From Streptomyces sp. TLI_105 (GTDB lineage Bacteria; Actinomycetota; Actinomycetes; Streptomycetales; Streptomycetaceae), in the NCBI RefSeq assembly GCF_900105415.1, contig NZ_FNSM01000001.1, positions 434,001 through 498,000 of the forward strand: 64,000 nt of DNA, written 5' to 3'. The position numbers and the translations under genes are program-made. The notes below the pieces were generated by a model that was not told the origin of the DNA, ran no database searches, and saw only the letters and a program-made list of their open reading frames with translations. Shown piece by piece: positions 25,892 to 38,313 of the stretch. Every line of letters begins with the position of its first letter. Positions within the stretch are counted from its first letter, which is position 1.

Positions 25892-27295
25892 TCAGGCCAC
25901 GCGGTCGGCGGCGAGCTGCGCGGCCAGGGCGGGGATGCCGAGGGCCTGCTCCTGGGCCGGTGTGGCCTGGTAGAGCTTGTTGGTCAGCTGGTAGGGGTCG
26001 TTCACCAGGTCGTAGTACTCGCGGAACTTCACCTGTCCGGTGCCGGACACCGTGCCGTTCCCGTCGGTCGTCAGGTCGTAGTACTCCGTGTACTGCTCGT
26101 CCTTGGCCACGTACGAGGACCAGGTGGGCGCGCCTCCGGCGGTGGTGCCCTGCTTCCACCATTCCACCAGGAGGTGGTCGCGGCTGTAGGAGGAGAGCAG
26201 GGACCGGCCGTCCTGCGGGGCGCTCGGGGTGATGCCGGCGGCGTCGAGGATGGTGGGGGCGATGTCGATGTTGGCGACGATGCGGTTGTCCTGGGTCCCC
26301 GCGCCGAGGCCGCCGGCCGGCCAGGAGAGGTAGAACGGCACCTCGTGCGCGGGGCGGTAGGGCACCGACTTCGCGGTCCAGCCGTGGTCGCCCCAGCTGA
26401 ATCCGTTGTCGCCGATGTAGATGACGAGGGTGTTGTCGAGCTGGCCCAGGGCCTGGAGCTTGTCCTTGAACGCCTGTACGGCGTCGTCGACGGAGAGCAG
26501 GGTGCGCAGCTGCTCGGCGCGGATGGTCCGGCCGTCGGCGAGGGTGCCGGTGGCGTTCTTGATGTAGCCGGGCTTGTCGCTGCGGTCGTTCTCGGGGACC
26601 GAGGGACGGCCGTTCCAGTCGGGCACGGGGGTGTCGGCGTACTTCGCCTCGGGGGTGCGCGGGCCGTGGGAGGCGTAGGGCGTGACGTACGCGAACCAGG
26701 GCCTGGTGTCGGTGGCGGCCTTGTCGAGGAATTTCAGGGTGCGGTTCTTGACGATGGTGGTGGTGTAGCCGTTGATCGTCTGGACGGTGCCGTCGACGTT
26801 CCACTGGGCGTCGACGTACCCGGGCTGGAGGAGGGCGAACTCCTCGAAGTGCGGCGGATTGTCCGCCAGGGTCCAGGAGTTGAGGTACTTGCCGAACAGG
26901 CCGGTGCGGTAGCCCGCCTGCTTGAGGTACTTCTGCACGGTGGTGCTCTGGTCCAGCGCGTGGGAGGCGCCGTTGTTGCGCACGCCGTGGTTGTGGGCGT
27001 GACGGCCGGAGAACACGCTGGAACGCGAGGGCGCGCACAGCGGGGTGGTGACGTGGCCGTCGGTGAACCTCACGCCCTGGTCGGCGAGCCAGGCGACGGT
27101 CTTGGGCAGGGCCCATTCGGTGTGCTTGGGCTGGTCGTCGGTGACGATCAGCAGGATGTTCGGCCGGCCGGCGGCAGCGGCGGGGCCGGCCGCGGCGACC
27201 TGCGCGAGGGCGGGTACGGCGGTCGCGGCCGCGACGGCGGCGGCGCCGCCGAGGAAGCCTCGTCGGCTCACCTGCGGGCGTCGGTTCTCGCTCAT
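25892..27295 (-). CDS. Tat-exported type I sulfatase
   Basis: A 467-residue alkaline-phosphatase-superfamily sulfatase. The N-terminus MSENRRPQVSRRGFLGG is a twin-arginine signal followed by an Ala-rich core, so it is exported folded. The formylglycine motif is CAPSR (Cys87) followed by SVFSGRH. Metal residues include the TDD pair at 53-54 and the IGDNGFSWGDHG segment. Start ATG 27295 lies 8 bases after GGAGGA; an in-frame ATG 9 bases upstream is too close to that site. Substrate unknown (sulfated carbohydrate or choline-type ester). A leader peptide lies upstream and FGE downstream. Confidence 0.92.
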   Translation of the reverse strand: MSENRRPQVSRRGFLGGAAAVAAATAVPALAQVAAAGPAAAAGRPNILLIVTDDQPKHTEWALPKTVAWLADQGVRFTDGHVTTPLCAPSRSSVFSGRHAHNHGVRNNGASHALDQSTTVQKYLKQAGYRTGLFGKYLNSWTLADNPPHFEEFALLQPGYVDAQWNVDGTVQTINGYTTTIVKNRTLKFLDKAATDTRPWFAYVTPYASHGPRTPEAKYADTPVPDWNGRPSVPENDRSDKPGYIKNATGTLADGRTIRAEQLRTLLSVDDAVQAFKDKLQALGQLDNTLVIYIGDNGFSWGDHGWTAKSVPYRPAHEVPFYLSWPAGGLGAGTQDNRIVANIDIAPTILDAAGITPSAPQDGRSLLSSYSRDHLLVEWWKQGTTAGGAPTWSSYVAKDEQYTEYYDLTTDGNGTVSGTGQVKFREYYDLVNDPYQLTNKLYQATPAQEQALGIPALAAQLAADRVA

Positions 27296-27444
27296 GATGT
27301 CCATTCCTCCGGGTGCGACTGCACGAGGGACACGGCGGACGGAGGCACGGGGAGACGTGCCGTCGGGCCGCGGTGGGGAAGGGGAAGAGACGGGAGTCAG
27401 GCGGGGGCGCCAGGTGGGGATCCCGTGGGGGGGAAGGGGCGCGT

Positions 27445-27531
27445 TCAGCGCGCCGGGGCGACCGTACACAGGGCGCTCGCCAGGTGCCCTTGGTCGACGT
27501 GGCGGCGCGCAGTGAGGATTCCTGCTGCCAT
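27445..27531 (-). CDS. RRHVD-type putative leader peptide upstream of the sulfatase
   Basis: On the minus strand a 28-codon ORF starts MAAGILTARRHVDQGH and continues to a SALC motif before TGA. The TARRHVD core with a downstream Cys matches the same leader family as at 12505-12573. It ends 149 bases before the sulfatase start. Sulfatases release sulfate for cysteine synthesis, so cysteine-responsive control is a coherent reading. The ribosome site is weak and no attenuator hairpin was resolved. Confidence 0.62.
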   Translation of the reverse strand: MAAGILTARRHVDQGHLASALCTVAPAR

Positions 27532-27551
27532 GGCCACGACAGTATGCGGAG

Positions 27552-27567
27552 TGGAACCGCGGTTCCA
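27552..27567. promoter_or_regulatory. Perfect 16-bp palindrome TGGAACCGCGGTTCCA
   Basis: An uninterrupted 16-bp palindrome lies 21 bases upstream of the sulfatase leader ORF and 172 bases upstream of the crotonase gene. This position fits an operator for a dimeric repressor on the sulfatase transcript. The protein that binds it is not in view. Confidence 0.55.
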
Positions 27568-27591
27568 TGTACGGCGGATGAAATGGCGGCC

Positions 27592-27677
27592 GCCGTGCTC
27601 ATCCACGACTGCCGTACTCACCTGTGCCCGCCGTGCTCACCCACCACCGCCGTGCTCACCCCGCCTCCGTGCTCACC
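27592..27677 (+). repeat. Five-copy iterated GCCGTGCTCACC repeat, 19-bp period
   Basis: Copies of GCCGTGCTCA (one with A for G) begin at 27592, 27611, 27630 and 27649, exactly 19 bases apart, and a fifth at 27666. The spacers differ in sequence. The block lies 60 bases upstream of the crotonase gene. It may be a microsatellite-like expansion or iterated protein-binding sites. Confidence 0.6.
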
Positions 27678-27738
27678 CCGCCTTCGCGCCGGGCTCCCCG
27701 GTCTGGCCGTCGGGCCACGGCCACGTGAGAATGCCCCC

Positions 27739-28539
27739 ATGACCGATGCATCAGCGACACCGGCGGAGCAGGACGCCGTCCGCGTCGAGCGCGACGGGCC
27801 CGTGACCACGGTGGTCCTGTCCCGGCCCGCCGCCCGCAACGCCGTGGACGGGCCGACGGCGCGGCGACTGGCCGACGCCTTCCGGGCGTTCGAGGCCGAC
27901 GAGGAGGCCTCGGTCGCGGTGCTGTGGGGCGAGGGCGGCACGTTCTGCGCGGGCGCCGACCTCAAGGCCGTCGGCACCGAGCGCGGGAACCGGGTGGCGC
28001 CCGACGGCGACGGCCCGATGGGGCCGACCCGGCTGCGCCTGACGAAACCGGTCGTCGCGGCCGTCAGCGGCCATGCGGTGGCCGGCGGGCTCGAACTGGC
28101 CCTCTGGTGCGATCTGCGCGTGGTCGAGGAGGACGCGGTCCTCGGGGTGTTCTGCCGCCGGTGGGGCGTGCCCCTGATCGACGGCGGCACGGTCCGGCTG
28201 CCCCGGCTGATCGGCGAGAGCCGCGCCATGGACCTGATCCTGACCGGCCGGCCGGTCGCGGCCGCCGAGGCGTACGAGATCGGGCTCGCGAACCGTCTCG
28301 TACCGCCGGGCCGGGCGCGGGCCGCGGCGGAGGACCTCGCCCGGGAGATCGCCGCGTTCCCCCAGCTGTGCCTGCGCCACGACCGCCTGTCCGTCCGGGA
28401 GCAGCACGGCCTGCCCGAACCCGAGGCGCTGGCGGTCGAACTGCGGCACGGCATGGTGCCCCTGTCGGCCGGCGAGACCCTCAGCGGCGCCGCGCGCTTC
28501 ACGGCCGGGGCCGGCCGGCACGGCTCGTTCACCGCCTGA
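27739..28539 (+). CDS. Crotonase/enoyl-CoA hydratase family protein
   Basis: A 266-residue crotonase-fold protein. The oxyanion-hole motifs are visible: GTFCAGADLKAVG and VSGHAVAGGLELALWCDLRV, the second containing the first catalytic Glu. The region that normally carries the second catalytic Glu reads FCRRWGVPLIDGGTVRLPRL; by eye the Glu position is a Cys, with an Asp nearby in LIDGG. So the exact reaction on an acyl-CoA (hydration, isomerisation or hydrolysis) is uncertain. ATG 27739 was chosen; iterated repeats lie upstream. It is apparently monocistronic. Confidence 0.85.
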   Translation: MTDASATPAEQDAVRVERDGPVTTVVLSRPAARNAVDGPTARRLADAFRAFEADEEASVAVLWGEGGTFCAGADLKAVGTERGNRVAPDGDGPMGPTRLRLTKPVVAAVSGHAVAGGLELALWCDLRVVEEDAVLGVFCRRWGVPLIDGGTVRLPRLIGESRAMDLILTGRPVAAAEAYEIGLANRLVPPGRARAAAEDLAREIAAFPQLCLRHDRLSVREQHGLPEPEALAVELRHGMVPLSAGETLSGAARFTAGAGRHGSFTA

Positions 28540-28585
28540 GCCGTCCGGGCCACGGCGAAGGCGCCGGTCTCGTCGGGAGCCGGTG

Positions 28586-28810
28586 TCAGTCGCGTGTCCG
28601 GTAGAGCCTGATGTCCCGGTTGACGAAGAGGTGGACGTAGCCGCACGACCAGCAGATCAGTCCGGTCGCCGACTCGTTCGCCCAGGCCATGTTGAAGAAC
28701 TCCATCCCCGTGCTGTTCAGCTTCACCTCCCGCTCGCGGAAGGTGTCGTTGTCACACACCTGGCAGCGGATCGACTTCTGTCCGATCGCCGCGTGCACCG
28801 GCTTGGCCAT
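28586..28810 (-). CDS. Small zinc-ribbon protein
   Basis: A 74-residue protein with two CxxC knuckles, Cys16/Cys19 (RCQVCD) and Cys53/Cys56 (CWSC), separated by 33 residues, as in a structural zinc ribbon. The central part LNSTGMEFFNMAWANESATG is rather conserved-looking and the tail is basic (DIRLYRTRD). It overlaps the 3' end of the big ATPase gene by 59 bases in another frame, on the same strand, so the two are probably co-expressed. Its role may be nucleic-acid or protein binding with the ATPase. I know no demonstrated function. Confidence 0.8.
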   Translation of the reverse strand: MAKPVHAAIGQKSIRCQVCDNDTFREREVKLNSTGMEFFNMAWANESATGLICWSCGYVHLFVNRDIRLYRTRD

Positions 28811-31800
28811 GCCGTCTCTCTCTTCCTCCGTCGGTTCCGGCGGTGTTCCGGGGCGGGTGGGGCGCGTCCGTCGCGCGGGTGATCGCCTTCTCGACGGCCG
28901 TGATGCGGTCGGCGAGCAGGCCGAGGGCGGCGACCGCGCGGGCCAGGGGGTCGTCTCCGGAGTCCCCGAGCGCGCGGGCGCGGGTGCGGGCGGCGTTCAG
29001 CTCCGTGCGGCGCGCGGACTGTGCCGGGGTGAGGGTGCCGCGCAGGGCGGCGAGTTCGAGGAGGTTGGCCTCGGCTTCGGTGGTCAGCGTCTGGGCCTCG
29101 GCGGTGTAGTGGTCGTCGATCAGGGCGGCGAGTTCGGCGTCGTCCATGACGGGCGAGATGCGGGCCGTGATCTTGCTCATCGTACGGTACGACCCCTGGA
29201 GCCGGAACGGCGCTGCGGTGCGGGCCTCGTCGGCGGTGGCGGCGGAGGCGATGTACGCCTCGTTGACGGCGAGGACGGTCTCCCGGGCGGTGAGGAGACG
29301 GCGGAGGACGGCGAGGACCTGGTCGAGTTCGGCCGGGGCGTAGGGGTGGGTGAGCCGGTCGCGGCGTGCGGCCGGGTCGCCTGCGGCCAGCCGGGTGAGG
29401 AGCTCCAGGTCGGCGCGGTCGCGCCCGGCGAGCGGGGCGAGGAGCGGGTGGGAGGTGAGGGCGTTCTCGACGAAGCTGAACGCGAAGGCCTCCTCCTTGC
29501 CGGTCAGCACGTCGCCGAGGTTCCACACGTCGGCCCGGCTGGCGAGCATGTCCGGCACGCGGAAGGCCCGTCCGGACTCGGTGTACGGGTTTCCGGCCAT
29601 GCAGACGGCGAAGCGTTTTCCGCGTAGGTCGTGGCCGTTCAGGGTCCGGGTGGCGTCGCAGAGGGGGATGAACTTCTGCAGGAACTCCGGGGAGGTGTGC
29701 TGGATGTCGTCCACGTACAGCAGGACGTTGTGGGCGGCGGCCAGGGCGAAGGCGATCTTCTCCAGCTCCCGGCGGGCGGTGGCGTCGGGTGCCGCGGCGG
29801 GGTCGAGGGAGGTCGTCCGCCGGCCGAGGGCGGGGCCGTCGACCTTGACGAGCAGCAGGCCGAGGCGTTCGGCGACGTACTCGACGAGGGTGGTCTTGCC
29901 GTAGCCGGGCGGGGAGAGGAGCAGCAGCAGCCCGTGGGAGTCGCCGCGCTCGGCGGTTCCGGCGGCGCCGAGCTGCTTGGCGAGGTTGTCGCCGAGGAGC
30001 GGGAGGTAGACCTCGTCGACGAGCCGGTTGCGGACGAAGGACGACATGACGCGGGGGCGGTACGCGTCCAGGCGGAGGCGGGCGCGCTCGGCGGTGAGGA
30101 GTTCCGTCCGCTGCCGCTGGTGGGCGCGGAAGGCCGGCGCGTCGACGGCGGCGAAGTGCCGTGTCCTGGCGAGGAACTCGTCGAGTCGCAGTTCCAGCGA
30201 GCGTGCCCGCACCCGGGGGTGGTCGCCGAGGAGCCCGGTGATCGTGGCCGTGGTCGGGGCGTCGACCTCGTAGCGGTCGAGCCCCGGGCAGAGCTCGACG
30301 GCGACGGCCTCGGCGAGCACGCCCGGGTCGTACGGCTCCCCGGACGCCGACGCGTACGAGGTGAGCCAGGCCTCGACGAACCGGCGTCGCGCGTCCGGCT
30401 CGGTGAGGGCGGCGAGGGCGTCGTCGTAGGCGGAGGCGCCGACGGTGCGGCGGAAGGCGGCGAGGAGGGCGCGCGCCGCGCCGGAGACGGCGAAGCCCGC
30501 CGGGCCGGAGGCGAGTTCGTCCGTCAGGTACGCGGCCGCCGCCGGGTCCCCGGTCGCTTCGGCGAGCTCCTCCCTCAGCCCGTCGAGGGCCGAGTCGGTG
30601 CCGAAGAGGTCACGGGCCCGGGTCAGCGCGACCGCCTGGTGGGTCCACTGCGCGCGGGCCCCGTCGGTGGTGGACGCCCAGAAGAGCTGGGCGGTCGCGC
30701 GCGCCGCCCCGGTGTGGCGCAGCGGTCCGGCGCCTTCGTCCAGCTTCAGCACCGCTTCCAGGATCAGCGCCGCGTCGTGGTCGTGGACGCCGCGCTCGTG
30801 GCCCTCGTCGTAGGCGGCCTCGGCCGCCTGCCGGGCGAGCGCGCCGAGGTCCGCTCCGGCGAGGCCGTCCGTGCCGTGCTCGGCCAGGAGGCGTGCCGCC
30901 AGGTGCTCGGCCCGGTAGACCTCGGGCGACTCGGAGGGCAGGGTCCGGTCCCAGAGGTGACGGGCGGCGGTGAGGGCCGGGTGGGTGACGGGTTCGCGGT
31001 AGTCGGTTCCCGTCAGGGCGAGGACGAGGGCGCCCCCGCCCGAGCCCCCGCCCGCGTCCTCGTGCGGGACGAGGGTCAGCTCGGGGGCCTGCCGGGTGAC
31101 GGCGAAGCGGTGCCGGCCGAGGCGGATCGTGTCGCCGCCGTCGGAGAAGAGCTCGGCGCGGTCCCGCAGTGCCCGCCCGGCCTCCTGGCGGGCGGCGCCG
31201 AGGCGGCTCTCCAGCTCCTCCGCCCGTGCCCGGTCGCCGAGCTCCCGCAGTTCCTCGCCGAGGCGCCGGACCCGGGTGACCATGGGGTCGGAGGCGAAGT
31301 AGGTGTGCACCTCGTCCAGGTCGGTCAGGCCCGCCGCCCGTCGGGCGATGGTTTCCAGGACCCGGCCGGCCGAGCCGGCGAGGCGCGCGGCGCGGCGGGC
31401 ACGGGCGTCCTGGAGGGCCTGTCCGCGTGCGGTGAAGGCGTCGTGGATCTCGGTGCGCCGCTCGGCGACGGCGGCGAGGAAGCCGTCGTGCCCGGTGAAG
31501 CGGGATTCCAGGTTCTCCAGCTGGAGCAGGAGCCGGCCGAGCTGTTCGTCGCAGCGGTCGGGGGTGCCGGCTGCGGCCAGGGCGCCGGTGACGGCCTGGC
31601 CGAGCAGGGCGAGCTCGGCGGCGAACTCGGCCCGGCCCTCCTGCTCCAGGAGTTCGGTGCGGCGGGCGGCGAGATGGGCCCGGGCGCGGTTGAGCGCGCC
31701 CAGGACGTCGGCGACGCGCGCCAGGATCGAGGCGCGGACGGTGGCGTCGCCGACGTCGAGACCGGCGATGACCTCGCCGAGGGTGCGCAGCTCGTGGGTG

Positions 31801-33659
31801 CGGGCGTCGATCCGTTCGCCGACCGGCCCGGTCTCGGCGACGGTGGCGAGTGCCCCGGCCTCGGTGGCGAGGCGTTCGGCCTCGGTGTGGTGGGCGGTGA
31901 AGGCGTCCTCGCCCCGGAGGAACGCGACGGCCCGCCGGGCGGCGGAGACGATGTCGGCCCCGACGTCCGCGGCGAGGGCGTCGATGGCCGCCGTGTCGGC
32001 GTACCGCATGTCCCTGAGGGTCACCAAGCGCCCTTGTGCCGTGCGGAGTTCGGTGATGCGGGCGATCCACTCCCCGGCCGTGGCGGGCGCCTCGCCCCGG
32101 ATGCGCCGGACGAGGCGGCCGATCTCCTGGGCGGAGTCGGCGAGGGCCTCGGCCGCCTGCCGGGTGAGCGCCGTGACGGTGCCGAACTCGTCGAGGACCT
32201 GCGCGGCGGTGGCCCGCAGTTCGGTCAGGGGTGTGCCCAGGTCGCCGGTGTCCGGGTCGCCCAGCCAGTGGTGGACGTCGCCCGCGCGCACGCAGGCGGC
32301 TACGAGCGCCTCGTACACCTCGGTGGTGGGTGTGGGCTCGGTGGCCTGCCGGGCGATCGACAGGCAGTCGGCGATCCCCCGGACGAGGTCGGCGTTGCCG
32401 ATGCGGGCCAGGGGGCCGGTCCCCGCGGGGCGCCGGTGGGTCTCGGAGACGTACGGCGTGCGCCAGATCTGCACCGGGTGGGTCCGGCCCGGCTCGCCGG
32501 ACTCGCCGCGGAGCACGGCCATCGTCCCGTCGTCGAGCAGGGCGTATCCGCGGCAGAGGAGCGGGGTCGCGATCTCCTTGCCGATGGGGTCGTACGGGAG
32601 GAGCAGGGTCCGGCCCTCCGTGCGGGCGCGGAAGACGAAGAGGAGGTGCTCCCCGTCGGGCGAGCGGACCGTCCGGTCGAAGGCCTGTCCCGCCGTGTCG
32701 GTCTCGAAGGTCCTCACGGCGCCTGAGGCGAGGCAGTAGCCGCCGGGGAACACGATCCCCTCGTCCTCGGGCAGCCGCAGGCACGCCTGTCCGATGGCGT
32801 CGAGCCTGACGGCGGCGCCGGTCAGGGTGTTGAAGACGAGGTGCCGGCGGACGTCCTCCTTGTAGGGGCGGACGCGCACCAGGATCAGTGCGCCCACGAC
32901 GGCGTGGGCCACCTCGGCGTCGGCGAGGGACTGCAGCGGCTCGTCGACCGGCTCCGTGTGGACGCTCCCGGCCGTGTCGGTGTCGTCGTCGGTCCTGACC
33001 GTCAGCGTCCCGCCGACCGTGGAGACGAACAGGCGGCCGCCGAGCGAGATGTGCGGGTGCCGGCCGGGTACGTGGTCGTCGCGGGTCGTCTCCACCCATG
33101 CGAGGTCGTCGGAGGGAGGCAGGACGTGGTCGCGTTCGCCCCGGGCGTCGAGGAACCGCATCTCGCCGGCGGGTCCGACGGACCAGCGCAGGACCCGCAG
33201 GTCGTCGTTCTGCTCCCCCGTCCGGAAGACGGCGAGGAGCCGGCCCTCGACGCGTCGCAGCCGGATCAGGCGCGCGCCCCGGTAGTAGCGGTGCAGCGCG
33301 GAGAACTCCCGTACGAAGGCGGGGTCGTCGAGGAGTCCGGGCACCGCCCGCGCGGGCAGCGCGTTCAGGTCGCGGTCGTGGAGGGTGAGGACGTCGGCGA
33401 CCGAGACCTCGGAGAGCCCCGTGCCGGAGGGCTGGGAGCCGAGGAGCAGGACGTCGTCGCCGACGGCGACGACGTCCTGGGGCACGCAGGCGCGCTCGGT
33501 GTCGATGCGGCGGGTGTCGGCGAGCGCGAGCTCGCCGGAGCCGAAGGCCGCGATCCGCTCCTCGTCGAGGGCTCCGGCGCGCCTGGCCAGCTCGGCGGCC
33601 CGTGCCGCGAGCCGGTCGCGCAAGACCGTGTACGTGTCCTCGTCGATTCCGGCACCCAT
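28752..33659 (-). CDS. Giant DUF3686-AAA ATPase (annotated elsewhere as DNA repair ATPase)
   Basis: A 1635-residue cytoplasmic protein. The first 500 residues form a beta-rich region with blades such as LLLGSQPSGTGLSEVSVADV and LVFNTLTGAAVRLD, matching the DUF3686 region that accompanies this ATPase. Residues about 500-1150 are long, Glu/Ala/Arg-rich helices likely to be coiled coil. A C-terminal AAA module has Walker A SPPGYGKTTLVEYVA (Lys1255) and Walker B LLYVDDIQ (Asp1317-Asp1318). The start ATG 33659 has AAGGAG 9 bases upstream. It lies 96 bases after the flotillin gene on the same strand. The DNA-repair label is an annotation habit; activity is unproven. Confidence 0.85.
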   Translation of the reverse strand: MGAGIDEDTYTVLRDRLAARAAELARRAGALDEERIAAFGSGELALADTRRIDTERACVPQDVVAVGDDVLLLGSQPSGTGLSEVSVADVLTLHDRDLNALPARAVPGLLDDPAFVREFSALHRYYRGARLIRLRRVEGRLLAVFRTGEQNDDLRVLRWSVGPAGEMRFLDARGERDHVLPPSDDLAWVETTRDDHVPGRHPHISLGGRLFVSTVGGTLTVRTDDDTDTAGSVHTEPVDEPLQSLADAEVAHAVVGALILVRVRPYKEDVRRHLVFNTLTGAAVRLDAIGQACLRLPEDEGIVFPGGYCLASGAVRTFETDTAGQAFDRTVRSPDGEHLLFVFRARTEGRTLLLPYDPIGKEIATPLLCRGYALLDDGTMAVLRGESGEPGRTHPVQIWRTPYVSETHRRPAGTGPLARIGNADLVRGIADCLSIARQATEPTPTTEVYEALVAACVRAGDVHHWLGDPDTGDLGTPLTELRATAAQVLDEFGTVTALTRQAAEALADSAQEIGRLVRRIRGEAPATAGEWIARITELRTAQGRLVTLRDMRYADTAAIDALAADVGADIVSAARRAVAFLRGEDAFTAHHTEAERLATEAGALATVAETGPVGERIDARTHELRTLGEVIAGLDVGDATVRASILARVADVLGALNRARAHLAARRTELLEQEGRAEFAAELALLGQAVTGALAAAGTPDRCDEQLGRLLLQLENLESRFTGHDGFLAAVAERRTEIHDAFTARGQALQDARARRAARLAGSAGRVLETIARRAAGLTDLDEVHTYFASDPMVTRVRRLGEELRELGDRARAEELESRLGAARQEAGRALRDRAELFSDGGDTIRLGRHRFAVTRQAPELTLVPHEDAGGGSGGGALVLALTGTDYREPVTHPALTAARHLWDRTLPSESPEVYRAEHLAARLLAEHGTDGLAGADLGALARQAAEAAYDEGHERGVHDHDAALILEAVLKLDEGAGPLRHTGAARATAQLFWASTTDGARAQWTHQAVALTRARDLFGTDSALDGLREELAEATGDPAAAAYLTDELASGPAGFAVSGAARALLAAFRRTVGASAYDDALAALTEPDARRRFVEAWLTSYASASGEPYDPGVLAEAVAVELCPGLDRYEVDAPTTATITGLLGDHPRVRARSLELRLDEFLARTRHFAAVDAPAFRAHQRQRTELLTAERARLRLDAYRPRVMSSFVRNRLVDEVYLPLLGDNLAKQLGAAGTAERGDSHGLLLLLSPPGYGKTTLVEYVAERLGLLLVKVDGPALGRRTTSLDPAAAPDATARRELEKIAFALAAAHNVLLYVDDIQHTSPEFLQKFIPLCDATRTLNGHDLRGKRFAVCMAGNPYTESGRAFRVPDMLASRADVWNLGDVLTGKEEAFAFSFVENALTSHPLLAPLAGRDRADLELLTRLAAGDPAARRDRLTHPYAPAELDQVLAVLRRLLTARETVLAVNEAYIASAATADEARTAAPFRLQGSYRTMSKITARISPVMDDAELAALIDDHYTAEAQTLTTEAEANLLELAALRGTLTPAQSARRTELNAARTRARALGDSGDDPLARAVAALGLLADRITAVEKAITRATDAPHPPRNTAGTDGGRERRHGQAGARGDRTEVDPLPGV

Positions 33660-33755
33660 CTCGTCCCGCTCCTTGTACGGTGGTGAGTACGGGTCCGGTG
33701 CCGCCAACTCCCCCGTTTGCCGGCGCCGGACCCTCTGTGACCGCTCCCCGTGCGG

Positions 33756-35825
33756 TCAGTTCTTGGCGGCGCCGTTCAGCGCGGTCGTCTCCGCCGCGGG
33801 CGCCGCGGCCGGGGCGGGAACCTGCGCGTCGAGCACCCCGTCGAGCACCCCGGAGTTCATGACCTTCGCGAGGAACGCGGAGACCCCGAGGTTCTGCACG
33901 TCGGTCGTGGACAGCGAGCCCAGCACCTTGGTCAGGTCCTCCGTGAAGGAGCCCGAGCCGTTCAGCCACGGCCCGGCGAGCGCCTGCGCGGTCTGTGAGT
34001 GGTCCACGAAGCCGTCGACGGACTTGCCGAGCGCGATGGACTGGACGAGCCGGTCGAGGAAGACCGAATCCCCGCCGACGATGTTGATGTCGGCGTGCTC
34101 CAGACCGGTCGCGAGGACGGTGGCCTGCGCCTGGGCGACCTGCCGCTGGACGTCGAGCCCGGCGAGCCGGATCTCCTTCTCGGCGGCCAGCCGCAGCCGG
34201 TACTCCTCGTGGGTGCGCGAGGCCCCGTCCAGCGCGGCCATCGCGGCCGCCTTCTCGGTCAGACCTGCCGCCTCGGCCTTCAGCTTCTCGCCGATCGCCG
34301 TGGCCTCGGCCAGCGCCTTCTCCCGCGTGCCGGCCGCCTCGGCGAGCGCCTTCTCGCGGACACCGGCCGCCTCGGCGCGCAGCCGGGCCTCGGTGGCCTC
34401 CGCCTCGGCGCGGCCGGCCTTCTCGATGACGTCGGCCTCCATGTCCCGTACCCGCACGGCCGCGAGGCCCTCGGCGGCGGCCTCGGCCTGGACGCCCTCG
34501 GCGAGGCGGATCTTGGCGCGGGCGTCCATGTCGGCCGCCTTGTTGCGGGCCTCCGCCAGGGTGAGCTCCTCCGCAGCCCGGTGGACGGCGGCCTGCTCGG
34601 CCGCCTCCGCCGCCTTGATGTCCTTGACCAGCTTCTCCTGCGCCTCCGCCTCGGCCGCGATGACGACGGCCTGCCGGGTGCGCTCGGCCTCCTCGACCAT
34701 GCGCAGCCGCTTGATGGACTCCTCCTGCTCGGCGACCGTGCGGTCCACCACGACCCGCTCCCGGATCACCTCGGCGATCTCGCGGCGCTCGGCCTCGACC
34801 TCCTTGTCGGCGGCGATGCGGGTCAGCTGGGTCTCCCGGTCGCGGGCGATGACCTCCAGGAGGCGGTCCTTCTCGATCCGCTCGTTCTCGACGGCGATGA
34901 CCCGCTCGCGGTTCTTCTGCGCGACCGCCACCTCGCGGGCCTGGTTCTCGCGCTGGACGCCGAGGTGCTCCTCGGTCCTGAGGAAGGCGCTCTGCGCCCG
35001 CAGCCGCTCCTCCTCCACCACGCGCGCGGTCTCGGCCTCCTCGCGTGCCCGCGAGGTGTCGATCTCCCGCCTCTGCTTGATCTCCGCGTCGGCCTGACGC
35101 CGCTCCAGCTCCAGGATGGCCTCGCGGGCGTCGACGTTCTGGCGGGTGATCTCCTTCTGCTCGTTCTGCCGGTACTCGTTCGTCCGGACGTTCTCCACGG
35201 CCGTCAGCTCGGTGATCTTGCGGATGCCCTGGGCGTCGAGGATGTTGCCGGGGTCGAGCTGGCTCAGCGGCGTCTGTTCCACGTGGTCGATGGCGGCGTC
35301 CTCCAGGTGGTAGCCGTTGAGGTCGATGCCGATGAGCTCGATGATCCGGAACCGCAGTTCCTCGCGCTTGGTGTAGAGGTCGGTGAAGTCGAGCTGCTTG
35401 CCGACGGTCTTGACGGCCTCGGAGAACTTGGCGTGGAACAGCTCCTCCAGGGTCTCCTGGTGGCTGGCCCGGGCGGTGCCGATGGCCTGCGCGACCTTGA
35501 TGACGTCCTCCACGGTCTTGTTGACCCGGATGAAGAACGAGATCCGGATGTCGGCACGGATGTTGTCCCGACAGATCAGCCCGTCCCGGCCCATCCGGGA
35601 GATCTCGAAGGTCTTCACCGAGATGTCCATGACCTCGGCCTTGTGCAGGACGGGCAGGACGATCTGCCCCGTGAAGGTGACGTCGACCTTGCGCGTCCTG
35701 GAGACGATCAGCGCCTTGCCCTGCTCCACCTTGCGGAACAGCCGGCCGACCACGAGGAGCAGAGCGACGGCGATGAGCAGGACGACGGCGATCAGCACGC
35801 CGGCGCCTCCGGTGACGACATCCAT
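33756..35825 (-). CDS. Flotillin-like SPFH/band 7 membrane scaffold protein
   Basis: A 689-residue flotillin homologue. One N-terminal transmembrane segment (GVLIAVVLLIAVALLLVVGR, residues 9-28) anchors it with no cleavable signal. The SPFH domain covers about residues 40-235, including KTFEISRMGRDGLICRDN and RFRIIELIGIDLNGYHLED. A long charged Ala/Glu/Arg coiled coil runs from about 235 to 590, then a C-terminal domain with VGGDSVFLDRLVQSI. Flotillins oligomerise into membrane microdomains and recruit partners. It is the first gene of a unit with the giant ATPase and zinc ribbon, suggesting that it docks the ATPase on the membrane. The start Met is chosen next to the TM. Confidence 0.9.
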   Translation of the reverse strand: MDVVTGGAGVLIAVVLLIAVALLLVVGRLFRKVEQGKALIVSRTRKVDVTFTGQIVLPVLHKAEVMDISVKTFEISRMGRDGLICRDNIRADIRISFFIRVNKTVEDVIKVAQAIGTARASHQETLEELFHAKFSEAVKTVGKQLDFTDLYTKREELRFRIIELIGIDLNGYHLEDAAIDHVEQTPLSQLDPGNILDAQGIRKITELTAVENVRTNEYRQNEQKEITRQNVDAREAILELERRQADAEIKQRREIDTSRAREEAETARVVEEERLRAQSAFLRTEEHLGVQRENQAREVAVAQKNRERVIAVENERIEKDRLLEVIARDRETQLTRIAADKEVEAERREIAEVIRERVVVDRTVAEQEESIKRLRMVEEAERTRQAVVIAAEAEAQEKLVKDIKAAEAAEQAAVHRAAEELTLAEARNKAADMDARAKIRLAEGVQAEAAAEGLAAVRVRDMEADVIEKAGRAEAEATEARLRAEAAGVREKALAEAAGTREKALAEATAIGEKLKAEAAGLTEKAAAMAALDGASRTHEEYRLRLAAEKEIRLAGLDVQRQVAQAQATVLATGLEHADINIVGGDSVFLDRLVQSIALGKSVDGFVDHSQTAQALAGPWLNGSGSFTEDLTKVLGSLSTTDVQNLGVSAFLAKVMNSGVLDGVLDAQVPAPAAAPAAETTALNGAAKN

Positions 35826-35900
35826 GAGAAACCCCGTCCGTTTTCTGTCTCCCGGCATCGGGCCGACGCCCATGCCCTCCGGTGGGGCCATCCTGAGACA

Positions 35901-35933
35901 GGATCACCCGTCGGGCATTGCCGTGATCCGGCA
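35901..35933. promoter_or_regulatory. Overlapping dyads between flotillin and PucR-type genes
   Basis: GGATCAC-N15-GTGATCC (35901-35929) overlaps a second dyad TGCCG-TGATC-CGGCA (35919-35933). Both are in the 208-base divergent intergenic region. They are candidate sites for the PucR-type protein acting on the flotillin-ATPase unit. Confidence 0.45.
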
Positions 35934-36033
35934 GTCTTCGAGGTCTCCTCCATGCCGGTCGCACACCCCGGGGGACGGCATGTCACTCTTGATCGCCGCG
36001 TGTCGGGGACGCGTCGGGAGACGGGGAGGGACC

Positions 36034-37095
36034 ATGACGGAGAGGGAGCCGGCCGAGGAGTACCTGGAGGGGTACGCCGAGATACTGGCGGCGGTGTGCG
36101 CGACCCGCCGCAGGCTCACCCGGGAGGAGCGCGAGGCCCTGGGCGCGCTCGGGGAGCGGTCCGCGGAGGCCGGCATCGGACTGCGGGCCCTCGTCCGGGC
36201 CCATCTCTCCGCCGCCCAGCGGGTGCGTCCCGGTCTGTCGCAGACGGCCGCCGAGCACCTCCTGAGCGCCGTCGAGCAGGCCGTGGACGCCTTCGCCGAG
36301 GGGCACGAGCGGGCCCAGCACCTGGCGGTGCGTCAGGAGGAGGCGGCGCGGCGCGAGTTCATCGACGACCTGCTCCACGGCCGCAGCGATCTCGGCCGGC
36401 TGGCGGAGCGGGCCGAGCGCTTCGGACTGCTCCTCTCGCACGCCCACGCCGTCGCCGTCGCCCAGGGCCCGGAGCCGTACAGCGACGGCTACGCGGTCAC
36501 CCGGAGCGTCGAGTCCTCGCTCGTCGCCCGCTTCGGCAATCGCCGCATCCTGCTCACCACCAAGGACGGGCGGCTCATCTGCGTCGCCCCGGCCGACGAG
36601 CCCGAGGTGCTCACCCACTTCGCCAAGCAGGCGTACGCGGCGACCGACGGCGGCCGGGTGGCGATCGGCCGCGCGCATCCGGGGGCGGGCGGTGTCGTCC
36701 ACTCCTACGAGGAGGCGCTCAACGCCCTCGCCCTCGCCGCCCGCATGGACCTCACCGATCCGGTCCTGCACGCCGCCGACCTCCTCGTCTACCCCGTGCT
36801 CACCCGCGACCGGCAGGCCATGGCCGAGCTCGTGGGCACCGTCCTCGGCCCGCTCCGCCAGGCCCGGGGCGGTGCCAAGCCCCTCCTGGACACCCTCACG
36901 GCGTACTTCGACACCGGCTGCGTCACCGCCCAGGCGGCCCGCAGCCTCAGTCTCAGCGTGCGGGCCATGACGTACCGCCTCGACCGCATCCACCGTCTGA
37001 CCGGCGCGGACCCCGGCGATCCCGTCCAGCGCTACACCCTCCAGACGGCCGTCATCGGCGCCCGGCTCCTGGACTGGCCCGACCAGCCGCTGTGA
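36034..37095 (+). CDS. PucR/CdaR-type helix-turn-helix regulator
   Basis: A 353-residue regulator. The N-terminal half is helical (RATRRRLTREEREALGALG and the AQRVRPGLSQTAAEHLL stretch) and resembles the RsbR-like helical N-domain of this group. The C-terminal PucR HTH is clear: LLDTLTAYFDTGCVTAQAAR then SLSVRAMTYRLDRIHRLTGA. Such proteins activate or repress adjacent genes in response to metabolites. It is divergent from the flotillin gene, with dyads between. ATG 36034 follows GGGGAGGG. It probably controls the flotillin-ATPase unit, by position. Confidence 0.87.
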   Translation: MTEREPAEEYLEGYAEILAAVCATRRRLTREEREALGALGERSAEAGIGLRALVRAHLSAAQRVRPGLSQTAAEHLLSAVEQAVDAFAEGHERAQHLAVRQEEAARREFIDDLLHGRSDLGRLAERAERFGLLLSHAHAVAVAQGPEPYSDGYAVTRSVESSLVARFGNRRILLTTKDGRLICVAPADEPEVLTHFAKQAYAATDGGRVAIGRAHPGAGGVVHSYEEALNALALAARMDLTDPVLHAADLLVYPVLTRDRQAMAELVGTVLGPLRQARGGAKPLLDTLTAYFDTGCVTAQAARSLSLSVRAMTYRLDRIHRLTGADPGDPVQRYTLQTAVIGARLLDWPDQPL

Positions 37096-37147
37096 CGTGT
37101 CTGGCGCCGGTCGCCGTAAGGTCCGTTCTGCTTCGCGAGTGAACCCG

Positions 37148-37168
37148 AACTGATCGCTGATCTCAGTT
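37148..37168. promoter_or_regulatory. Candidate operator AACTGA-N9-TCAGTT upstream of terpene synthase
   Basis: A 6-bp inverted repeat in a comparatively AT-rich stretch, 114 bases before the terpene synthase start. The spacer also holds TGATC half-sites. It may be an operator; no regulator is adjacent except the PucR-type gene upstream. Confidence 0.35.
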
Positions 37169-37281
37169 AGTTGAACGGTTTCCGGCCGTCTCTGGTGGGC
37201 AGGTTTGCAGAGCCGTGGACCGGGCATCGTCCGGCCTCGCGGCACAGCGATGCGGGCCGGAGTGAGAAGGAGGTCGGTCCC

Positions 37282-38313
37282 ATGACCGTGCGTGCCGTCG
37301 AGCTGCCGCAGTTGTGGATGCCCTACGCGCTGCGGGTGAATCCGTATCTCCCGGCTCTGCACGAGGAGAGCGAGACCTGGGCGCGCGGCATGGGGATGCT
37401 GGACGGCGGCCGGTGGCCCTCGGCGCGTACCGCGATCTGGACGCGGTCGAAGTTCCACGCCATGACCGTCGACCAGCTGACCGCCTGGACCCTTCCCGAC
37501 GCCTCGTTCGAGGCCTTACGGCTCAACCACCGGTTCAACATCTGGGCCCTCGCCTGGGACGACTACTTCGCCTCCGCCTTCAAGCAGACCGGCGACCTTC
37601 CCGGCGCCCGGGCCTTCACCGCCCGGCTGCACGCCTTCCTGCGGCCCGAGCGCGGTGCCCGGCTGCCCGAGCCGACGAACGCCGTGGAGCGGGGGATCGC
37701 CGATCTGCAGCAGCAGCTCTTCCCGCCGAGGCTGGCGCACTGGCGGGTGGAGTTCAACCGGGCCCTGGTGCGGTACGTCGACGCGGGAGTCGAGGAACTG
37801 GCCAACAGCCGCAGCGGCCGCATTCCCCATCTGATCGACTACGCCCCGTTCCGCCGGGAGAGCTTCGCCGCCTATACCGCCCCCTATTCCGTCGAATTGG
37901 CCACCGGCGCGCGCATACCCGAACAGATACGGCACACCCGTACCGTCCGCGCCCTGCTCGACGCCTTCATGGATTTCATGGGGCTGGCGAACGACATCGC
38001 GTCCTACGAGAGGGAGGTGCACGAGGAGAAGGACGTCAACAACCTGGTCCTGGTCGTCGGGACGTCCCTGGGCATCACCCTCCACGACGCCGTGCCCGCC
38101 GCCCTGAACCTGGTGAACGCCCGGCTGCGGGACTTCGAGCACCTCCGGCAGAGCGAACTACCCCCGCTCGTCCGGCACTTCGCCCTCGACCGCGACGAGC
38201 GGACCGAACTGGAGACCTGGCTCGAAGGAGCCTGCGGCTTCCTCTCCGGCCTCCACGCCTGGTACACCGGAGCACCCCGCTACGCCTCCGGGGACGTCCC
38301 GTTCCCGGGGTGA
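37282..38313 (+). CDS. Class I terpene synthase
   Basis: A 343-residue all-helical terpene cyclase that would ionise a prenyl diphosphate (probably farnesyl or geranyl) with Mg. The Asp-rich motif is WDDYFAS (Asp93-Asp94), which lacks a third acidic residue. The NSE motif is complete: NDIASYERE (Asn237, Ser241, Glu245). A KYE-like RDFEHL follows. The Leu79 codon is TTA, so translation depends on the bldA tRNA and production would be tied to development. Start ATG 37282 has AAGGAGGT upstream. The gene converges on the conservon P450. The product cannot be predicted from sequence. Confidence 0.88.
   Translation: MTVRAVELPQLWMPYALRVNPYLPALHEESETWARGMGMLDGGRWPSARTAIWTRSKFHAMTVDQLTAWTLPDASFEALRLNHRFNIWALAWDDYFASAFKQTGDLPGARAFTARLHAFLRPERGARLPEPTNAVERGIADLQQQLFPPRLAHWRVEFNRALVRYVDAGVEELANSRSGRIPHLIDYAPFRRESFAAYTAPYSVELATGARIPEQIRHTRTVRALLDAFMDFMGLANDIASYEREVHEEKDVNNLVLVVGTSLGITLHDAVPAALNLVNARLRDFEHLRQSELPPLVRHFALDRDERTELETWLEGACGFLSGLHAWYTGAPRYASGDVPFPG

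Follow-up and report, generated by a model that had tools for sequence, protein, structure and literature searches.

A conserved SPFH-giant ATPase gene pair and its frequent ion-transport neighborhood in Streptomyces

The SPFH (flotillin-like) gene and the giant AAA ATPase gene studied in this work form a real, conserved two-gene pair with near-constant linkage and gene order, and in Streptomyces this pair frequently sits in neighborhoods of monovalent-cation and proton transport genes. Such a neighborhood is a hint that the pair acts in ion or membrane stress and not in DNA repair. The pair itself is of a known kind, because Ravi et al. 2024 (PMC11237479) describe it and plasmids show its full forms; new here are the ion-transport linkage and the apparent likeness of the ATPase to MoxR activases.

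The pair was found in the window, i.e. the whole 64-kb stretch of DNA that was analyzed. The initial annotation had combined three genes at 28586-35825 into one membrane-linked unit, and this interpretation as a whole is partly supported: the three genes are real, the SPFH-ATPase linkage holds, and the third gene, a Zn ribbon, does not belong to the conserved unit.

Genes of the window and their predicted proteins

All three genes are open frames on the minus strand, and a divergent gene of the PucR type lies opposite, as had been annotated (Table 1). The SPFH and ATPase genes are separated by 96 nt, and the ATPase and Zn-ribbon genes overlap by 59 nt; by eye, a purine-rich sequence resembling a ribosome site is found 5' of both the ATPase and Zn-ribbon genes. 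An Rfam search over 27000-38000 gave no match at the gathering score. The source genome (8.88 Mb) contains one DUF3686 gene. Among the 120 homologues listed for each of the SPFH protein and the ATPase, every named protein is from Streptomyces, and the names given are 'flotillin family protein' or YqiK for the former and 'DNA repair ATPase' for the latter.

Table 1. Features of the SPFH-ATPase region in window coordinates
Feature	Position	Strand	Description
SPFH/flotillin (YqiK-like) gene	33756..35825	-	689 aa, ATG/TGA, open frame, one N-terminal TM segment
DUF3686-DUF7902-AAA ATPase gene	28752..33659	-	1635 aa, ATG/TGA, open frame, Pfam
Beta-propeller part of DUF3686, residues 41-402	32454..33539	-	Predicted
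DUF7902, residues 585-669, inside long-helical region	31653..31907	-	Pfam E 5e-24; helices in structure model
AAA core and lid, about residues 1203-1542	29034..30053	-	AlphaFold2 model
Walker A SPPGYGKTT, residues 1249-1257	29889..29915	-	Lys1255 invariant
Walker B LLYVDDIQH, residues 1313-1321	29697..29723	-	Asp1317-1318 invariant
Zn-ribbon gene	28586..28810	-	74 aa, CxxC-x33-CxxC (Cys 16, 19, 53, 56), ATG
Divergent PucR-type regulator gene	about 36034..37095	+	Pfam GGDEF_2 + HTH_30

The description of the first gene as SPFH with one TM helix was confirmed: hydropathy reveals a single hydrophobic segment, near the N terminus, and the Band_7 model passes with E 4e-9 on a homologue (P0169) that is 88% identical, as it does with E 9e-11 on the pQBR103 protein, which is 42% identical. 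On the window protein itself, whose sequence is by eye repetitive and rich in Ala and Glu, Pfam does not call Band_7 even at E 10. Since the call is also missing on the SPFH homologues of three other loci (L184, L185 and L145), Band_7 is near the Pfam detection limit in this family. The sole PDB match of the SPFH profile, QmcA, had an E of 0.029 and fell outside the SPFH part, and was not used.

The ATPase was likewise correctly assigned. DUF3686 (PF12458) matches it with E 2e-170 and 567 bits against a cut-off of 25, and the AAA model matches its C-terminal part with 23.6 bits against a cut-off of 21.2. The invariance of Lys1255 and Asp1317-1318 holds in alignments of 9 and of 56 homologues. 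Asn1357 and GSYR, which we take to be the sensor-1-like and sensor-2-like elements of the AAA core, respectively, are intact in the window protein together with both Walker motifs. An AlphaFold2 model of residues 836-1635 has a mean pLDDT of 85.6, with values below 50 in the final 37 residues. The predicted architecture is a beta-propeller, a helical region and an AAA core; the annotated 'long coiled coils' are seen only as long predicted helices in the structure model. By hydropathy, there is a marginal hydrophobic stretch at residues 245-263, within the propeller. In structure searches, the top 10 VIA-align matches listed were all CbbQ/NorQ, and RuvB chains occupied Foldseek ranks 2-11; the predicted AAA fold appears to be nearest to the MoxR activases. 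No nuclease, SMC hinge, DNA-binding or protease domain was found in the ATPase by Pfam at E<=10, in agreement with the initial annotation, which had noted that the first two are missing.

Linkage of the pair and its partners across genomes

A phylum-wide set of 296 genomes has homologues of the ATPase (PF12458) in 8, belonging to 2 of 198 genera; among 121 Streptomyces genomes they occur in 63, with 62 over the cut-off, and in another phylum (that of locus L147) in 53 of 329. The SPFH gene lies upstream of the ATPase gene in 78 of 80 GTDB loci, with the two misses starting at contig ends; these 80 loci are the best of at least 532 confirmed relatives, and close relatives dominate among them. 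The linkage was also found in each of 52 further stretches from Streptomyces, 8 of which are near-identical to earlier loci, in 9 of 9 other loci, and in 18 of 20 loci of the other phylum. It extends to five distant records (L183-L187) from Pseudomonas, Hymenobacter, Deinococcus, Proteus and Vibrio, the Hymenobacter assignment being based on 40% identity to a gene annotated as hypothetical. In every locus where both genes were found (113 of 113; 117 examined), SPFH is on the same strand and upstream, and in two genomes with two ATPase copies each (G128 and G182) it lies beside each copy.

In two loci of the other phylum (L200 and L202), the ATPase gene seemingly stands alone, with no SPFH neighbor detected. 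The SPFH match is split in two in L016 and the ATPase match in L018, and the ATPase open frame of L012/L002 has just 622 aa; in L012, L016 and L018, this possibly reflects gene decay or faulty sequencing. The genomes of L012 and L016 (G128 and G182) each have a second copy as well. In a plasmid collection of 72,556 records, 12 contain the ATPase, some of these being as large as a chromosome; the ATPase matched none of 50,697 phage records, on which ground a phage-borne module was rejected.

The usual third gene of the module is YqiJ, which encodes a 3-TM, NfeD-like protein and lies upstream of SPFH. A YqiJ-like frame with at least two hydrophobic segments precedes SPFH in 70 of the 85 evaluable loci among 91, a count made by a hydropathy rule and not by homology. 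Gene clustering places YqiJ in 59 of 107 Streptomyces loci, and 15 of the 20 loci of the other phylum have a YqiJ match. No such frame was found by hydropathy upstream of SPFH in the window (35826-36033), and in the source genome PF07290 had no match and an actinobacterial YqiJ profile reached a best E of 0.11. Judging from these sequences, YqiJ appears as if it were being lost, since it is missing in the window and short (157 aa) in the nearest relative by the ATPase tree, L071.

The 74-residue CxxC-CxxC protein is present as annotated and matches Zn_ribbon_13 weakly, below the cut-off (E 0.0016). Its gene lies beside the ATPase gene in 1 of the 80 GTDB loci, in 0 of the 52 further Streptomyces stretches and in 0 of the 9 other loci, and these counts rule it out as a core member of the module. 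The initial annotation had proposed a neighborhood survey of the ATPase homologues, taking rare co-occurrence with either neighbor to speak against its three-gene unit; when the survey was run, the SPFH link held, but the Zn-ribbon half failed on exactly this point. Among the 121 Streptomyces genomes, 15 have a member of the Zn-ribbon family, and in two of these, that of the window and G402, it adjoins the ATPase. Beyond the window, the two genes are neighbors in L071, which is one of the 80, and in L058 of G402, which is outside the 9 and the 52 because it was fetched on account of its Zn ribbon. Eleven of the 15 genomes also contain the ATPase (expected 7.7, P 0.06). In L071, the Zn-ribbon gene lies clear of the aligned end of the ATPase. 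We conclude that the Zn ribbon is a local, unrelated or optional addition to the pair. The loci L059-L068 show that its family is scattered in Streptomyces with varied neighbors, and L059 lies near a Na+/H+ exchanger gene.

A divergent PucR gene is found within 2.5 kb of the pair in 26 of 78 GTDB loci. The PucR cluster is present in 70 of 107 Streptomyces loci and in 0 of 40 controls, and no PucR gene lies beside the pair in 26 non-Streptomyces loci.

The full operon forms (PspA/YjfI or Tir/YqiJ) are found on pQBR103 and on a Hymenobacter plasmid. According to the accessible part of PMC11237479, CesT/Tir-PspA operons also contain genes for YqiJ/YuaF, for a TM-band7-coil-flotillin protein and for an AAA+ ATPase that carries a fused coiled coil and propeller repeats; abbreviated operons, with SPFH and YqiJ and sometimes also the ATPase, occur more widely. 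The window shares with the system of Ravi et al. a TM-band7 protein encoded beside an AAA+ protein with an N-terminal propeller and long helices, but it is without YqiJ, has neither PspA nor CesT/Tir nearby, and has PucR and the Zn ribbon. Because the 3-TM partner YqiJ/YuaF was not found, we call the window pair a reduced relative rather than a full member. The claim that the system is poorly described is only half true, as Ravi et al. had described it. The name DUF3686 appears in no paper of the open-licence literature searched. The main text of PMC11237479 contains none of the words MoxR, antiporter, sodium, TrkA and Streptomyces, and the open-licence literature searched yielded no report of an antiporter linkage or a MoxR assignment.

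Other known systems resemble the pair in part. The window ATPase differs from the MoxR-type CbbQ/NorQ in its 1635 aa with propeller and helices and in its SPFH neighbor. MoxR ATPases are normally paired with VWA proteins. The FloA/NfeD, FloT/YuaF and YqiK/YqiJ operons share the SPFH protein with the pair, but to our knowledge they have no giant ATPase. Their SPFH proteins usually have an NfeD/YqiJ-like partner, as far as the accessible part of PMC2636767 goes. FtsH-HflK/C, an SPFH cage with an AAA+ protease (PMC13086221, accessible part), is similar in combining an SPFH membrane partner with an AAA+ motor, whereas the window ATPase has a propeller, no Pfam protease domain and only a marginal hydrophobic stretch. 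The same part of that paper, a survey of P. aeruginosa SPFH proteins from 2026, reports that most deletions had little effect and that the proteins are largely dispensable in laboratory conditions. P. aeruginosa has a DUF3686 ATPase, and cluster P0243 comprises 3222 member sequences; the word ATPase is absent from the survey. In Shewanella, a knock-out of SO1377, a YqiK-family gene that adjoins a DUF1449 gene, had iron, mutation and peroxide phenotypes (PMC1468410), and the word ATPase is absent from that paper.

Ion-transport genes around the pair in Streptomyces

Clustering of the genes around 91 loci and the window gave, as the commonest clusters after SPFH, ATPase, YqiJ and PucR, TrkA_N and ABC ATPase (15 loci each), NhaA (11 loci) and Na+/alanine symporter (10 loci), and the next clusters included, among others, Na+/H+ exchangers, CBS and CitMHS/NhaD-like genes. 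In 107 Streptomyces loci, TrkA_N (30 loci) and NhaA (21 loci) are the top non-core clusters, and both are absent from 40 controls.

For the transport test, eleven cation-transport proteins were used as tblastn queries, with thresholds of E<=1e-15 and half length. Cation/H+ transport genes were found in 26 of 54 GTDB loci of the discovery set that their record titles assign to Streptomyces, as against 0 of 40 random 20-kb stretches, whose positions in 21 genomes with the module were set by hand to round coordinates; they were also found in 6 of 10 sampled loci and in 1 of 26 non-Streptomyces loci. Because the queries themselves derived from discovery loci and a single plasmid (L188), they were then fixed and 52 fresh loci were tested. 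Eight of these, at least 97% identical over at least 3 kb to a discovery locus, were dropped, and 30 of the remaining 44, all of the same genus as the discovery loci, had such genes, compared with 0 of the same 40 controls (Fisher 4e-12, a value that, like the Poisson values of the linkage test, ignores relatedness and uneven gene distribution); among all 52 loci, the number was 31. Two comparison families were not enriched, namely MFS (3/54 vs 6/40) and ABC (5/54 vs 3/40). Two others were: Usp (7/54) and CBS (5/54), each against 0/40, so that the pair loci may be general stress islands.

When NhaA was located by its Pfam model, unconnected to the loci, at least 12 of the 64 module copies had it within 10 kb, as against 0.25 expected, and at least 18 within 25 kb, as against 0.62 expected, where distances are between match starts, module-bearing genomes have 1.6 copies, and 8.4 Mb was assumed for each. 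In NhaA copies per genome, the genomes that carry the module (1.63) are not different from those lacking it (1.49; P 0.39).

When the loci with any such gene (61 rows) are labeled on an ATPase tree with 111 rows, this label requires 23 changes, as compared with a mean of 36.5 and a minimum of 26 in shuffles, which indicates that the transport linkage is partly inherited and consists of many separate arrangements. NhaA requires 15 changes for 21 rows and one exchanger family 11 for 12 rows; all these changes also include losses and rearrangements. In the 64 kb of the window, tblastn found none of these transport genes. The two nearest tree neighbors of the window, L071 and L273, have four kinds of transport gene each, and the third nearest, L295, has none in its stretch. 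Since the window and L295 have none and only one non-Streptomyces locus has any, the link to ion transport may be particular to Streptomyces. Outside this genus, a flotillin is induced by alkali in B. halodurans, as cited in the accessible part of PMC4453477.

Proposed role of the pair and alternative explanations

Our preferred reading, whose chances we judge to be about even, is that the pair is a membrane-anchored remodelling machine acting on membrane-linked clients under ion, pH or envelope stress, with YqiJ absent and the Zn ribbon an add-on. Like other SPFH proteins, this one would build a cage or platform at the membrane, the propeller and the long helices might dock the ATPase to SPFH or to the client, and ATP hydrolysis would remodel, activate or extract membrane-linked client proteins. 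The clients could perhaps be ion transporters or respiratory complexes, of which ion transporters are the boldest guess, and the trigger would be ion, pH or envelope stress. A platform with client remodelling is proposed because of the analogy with MoxR activases, with flotillin, which holds unfolded proteins (PMC11222466), and with the B. subtilis SPFH protein that links PspA to the membrane (PMC8581546), as reported in the accessible parts of both papers. Weighing against this reading are the RuvB chains in the Foldseek list, the two loci of the other phylum with a seemingly solitary ATPase, the unchanged NhaA copy number, the absence of transport genes from the window, the Usp and CBS enrichment, the mild outcome of most SPFH deletions in P. 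aeruginosa, and the VWA partners that are usual for MoxR ATPases. The membrane platform and remodelling ATPase for membrane stress suggested in the initial annotation agree both with the ion-transport neighborhood and with the accessible part of PMC11237479.

A more specific version is offered tentatively: the pair may be a dedicated monovalent-cation/proton homeostasis machine, in which a flotillin cage and a propeller-tethered MoxR-type activase would assemble, activate or clear Na+/H+ and K+ transport proteins, the SPFH platform would replace the VWA adaptor, and the pair would, in Streptomyces, repeatedly have become linked anew to transporters of different families.

Rather doubtful, in our view, is a PSP-type, ESCRT-like function, in which the pair would help PspA, encoded elsewhere in Streptomyces, by remodelling PspA polymers on damaged membranes. 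On pQBR103 and on the plasmid from Hymenobacter, the pair does adjoin PspA and CesT/Tir or YjfI, a PspA-linked role is proposed in the accessible part of PMC11237479, and the source genome has two PspA-family matches; however, these lie megabases from the pair, so PspA is unlinked to it in the window, and tblastn, with its limited sensitivity, found no PspA/YjfI match in the 20 loci of the other phylum. It is improbable that in Streptomyces the pair merely travels in general stress-adaptation islands and is not directly tied in function to ion transport. The Usp and CBS enrichment would fit this explanation, as would the clusters in 12-17 loci that by eye resemble TerB, an LLM-type oxidoreductase and tryptophanyl-tRNA synthetase, and the one plasmid copy near TerD and CopC genes, but TrkA_N and NhaA rank first among the non-core clusters, and the transport genes lie on either side and strand of the pair.

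Anti-phage defense, which the initial annotation had also suggested, would have the SPFH platform sensing membrane damage and the ATPase as effector or sensor; we consider it very unlikely. The patchy distribution in Streptomyces and the plasmid-collection records noted above are in its favor, but PADLOC gives only a weak match to IetA, over 29 residues at the P-loop (E 0.003), and no other evidence was found; moreover, the commonest annotated non-core clusters are transport genes, and the phage records contain no match, although this says little on defense. Finally, a DNA repair ATPase acting in RuvB-like branch migration, as the label implies, is scarcely credible. In its favor are weak RuvB P-loop matches in the AAA core, all below the cut-offs (about 48 residues; RuvB_N 21.3 vs a cut-off of 27, NCBIfam RuvB 21.3 vs 282 and 20.2 vs 299), the RuvB chains in the Foldseek list, and the rise in spontaneous mutation after loss of SO1377, which its authors attribute to iron leakage (PMC1468410, accessible part). 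Against it, the best VIA-align matches among those listed are protein-remodelling activases, Pfam found no nuclease, SMC hinge or DNA-binding domain in the ATPase, and the SPFH partner carries a TM segment.

The objection that the initial annotation raised to the DNA-repair label stands despite the weak RuvB-like sequence and fold matches, which are perhaps the source of the label. If the ion-homeostasis link is true, the label 'DNA repair ATPase' misleads annotation, and two fields, those of flotillin scaffolds and MoxR activases, are joined. Database proteins matching the giant ATPase number 2676 of 7988 and 5868 of 7998 scored, and many of them carry this name.
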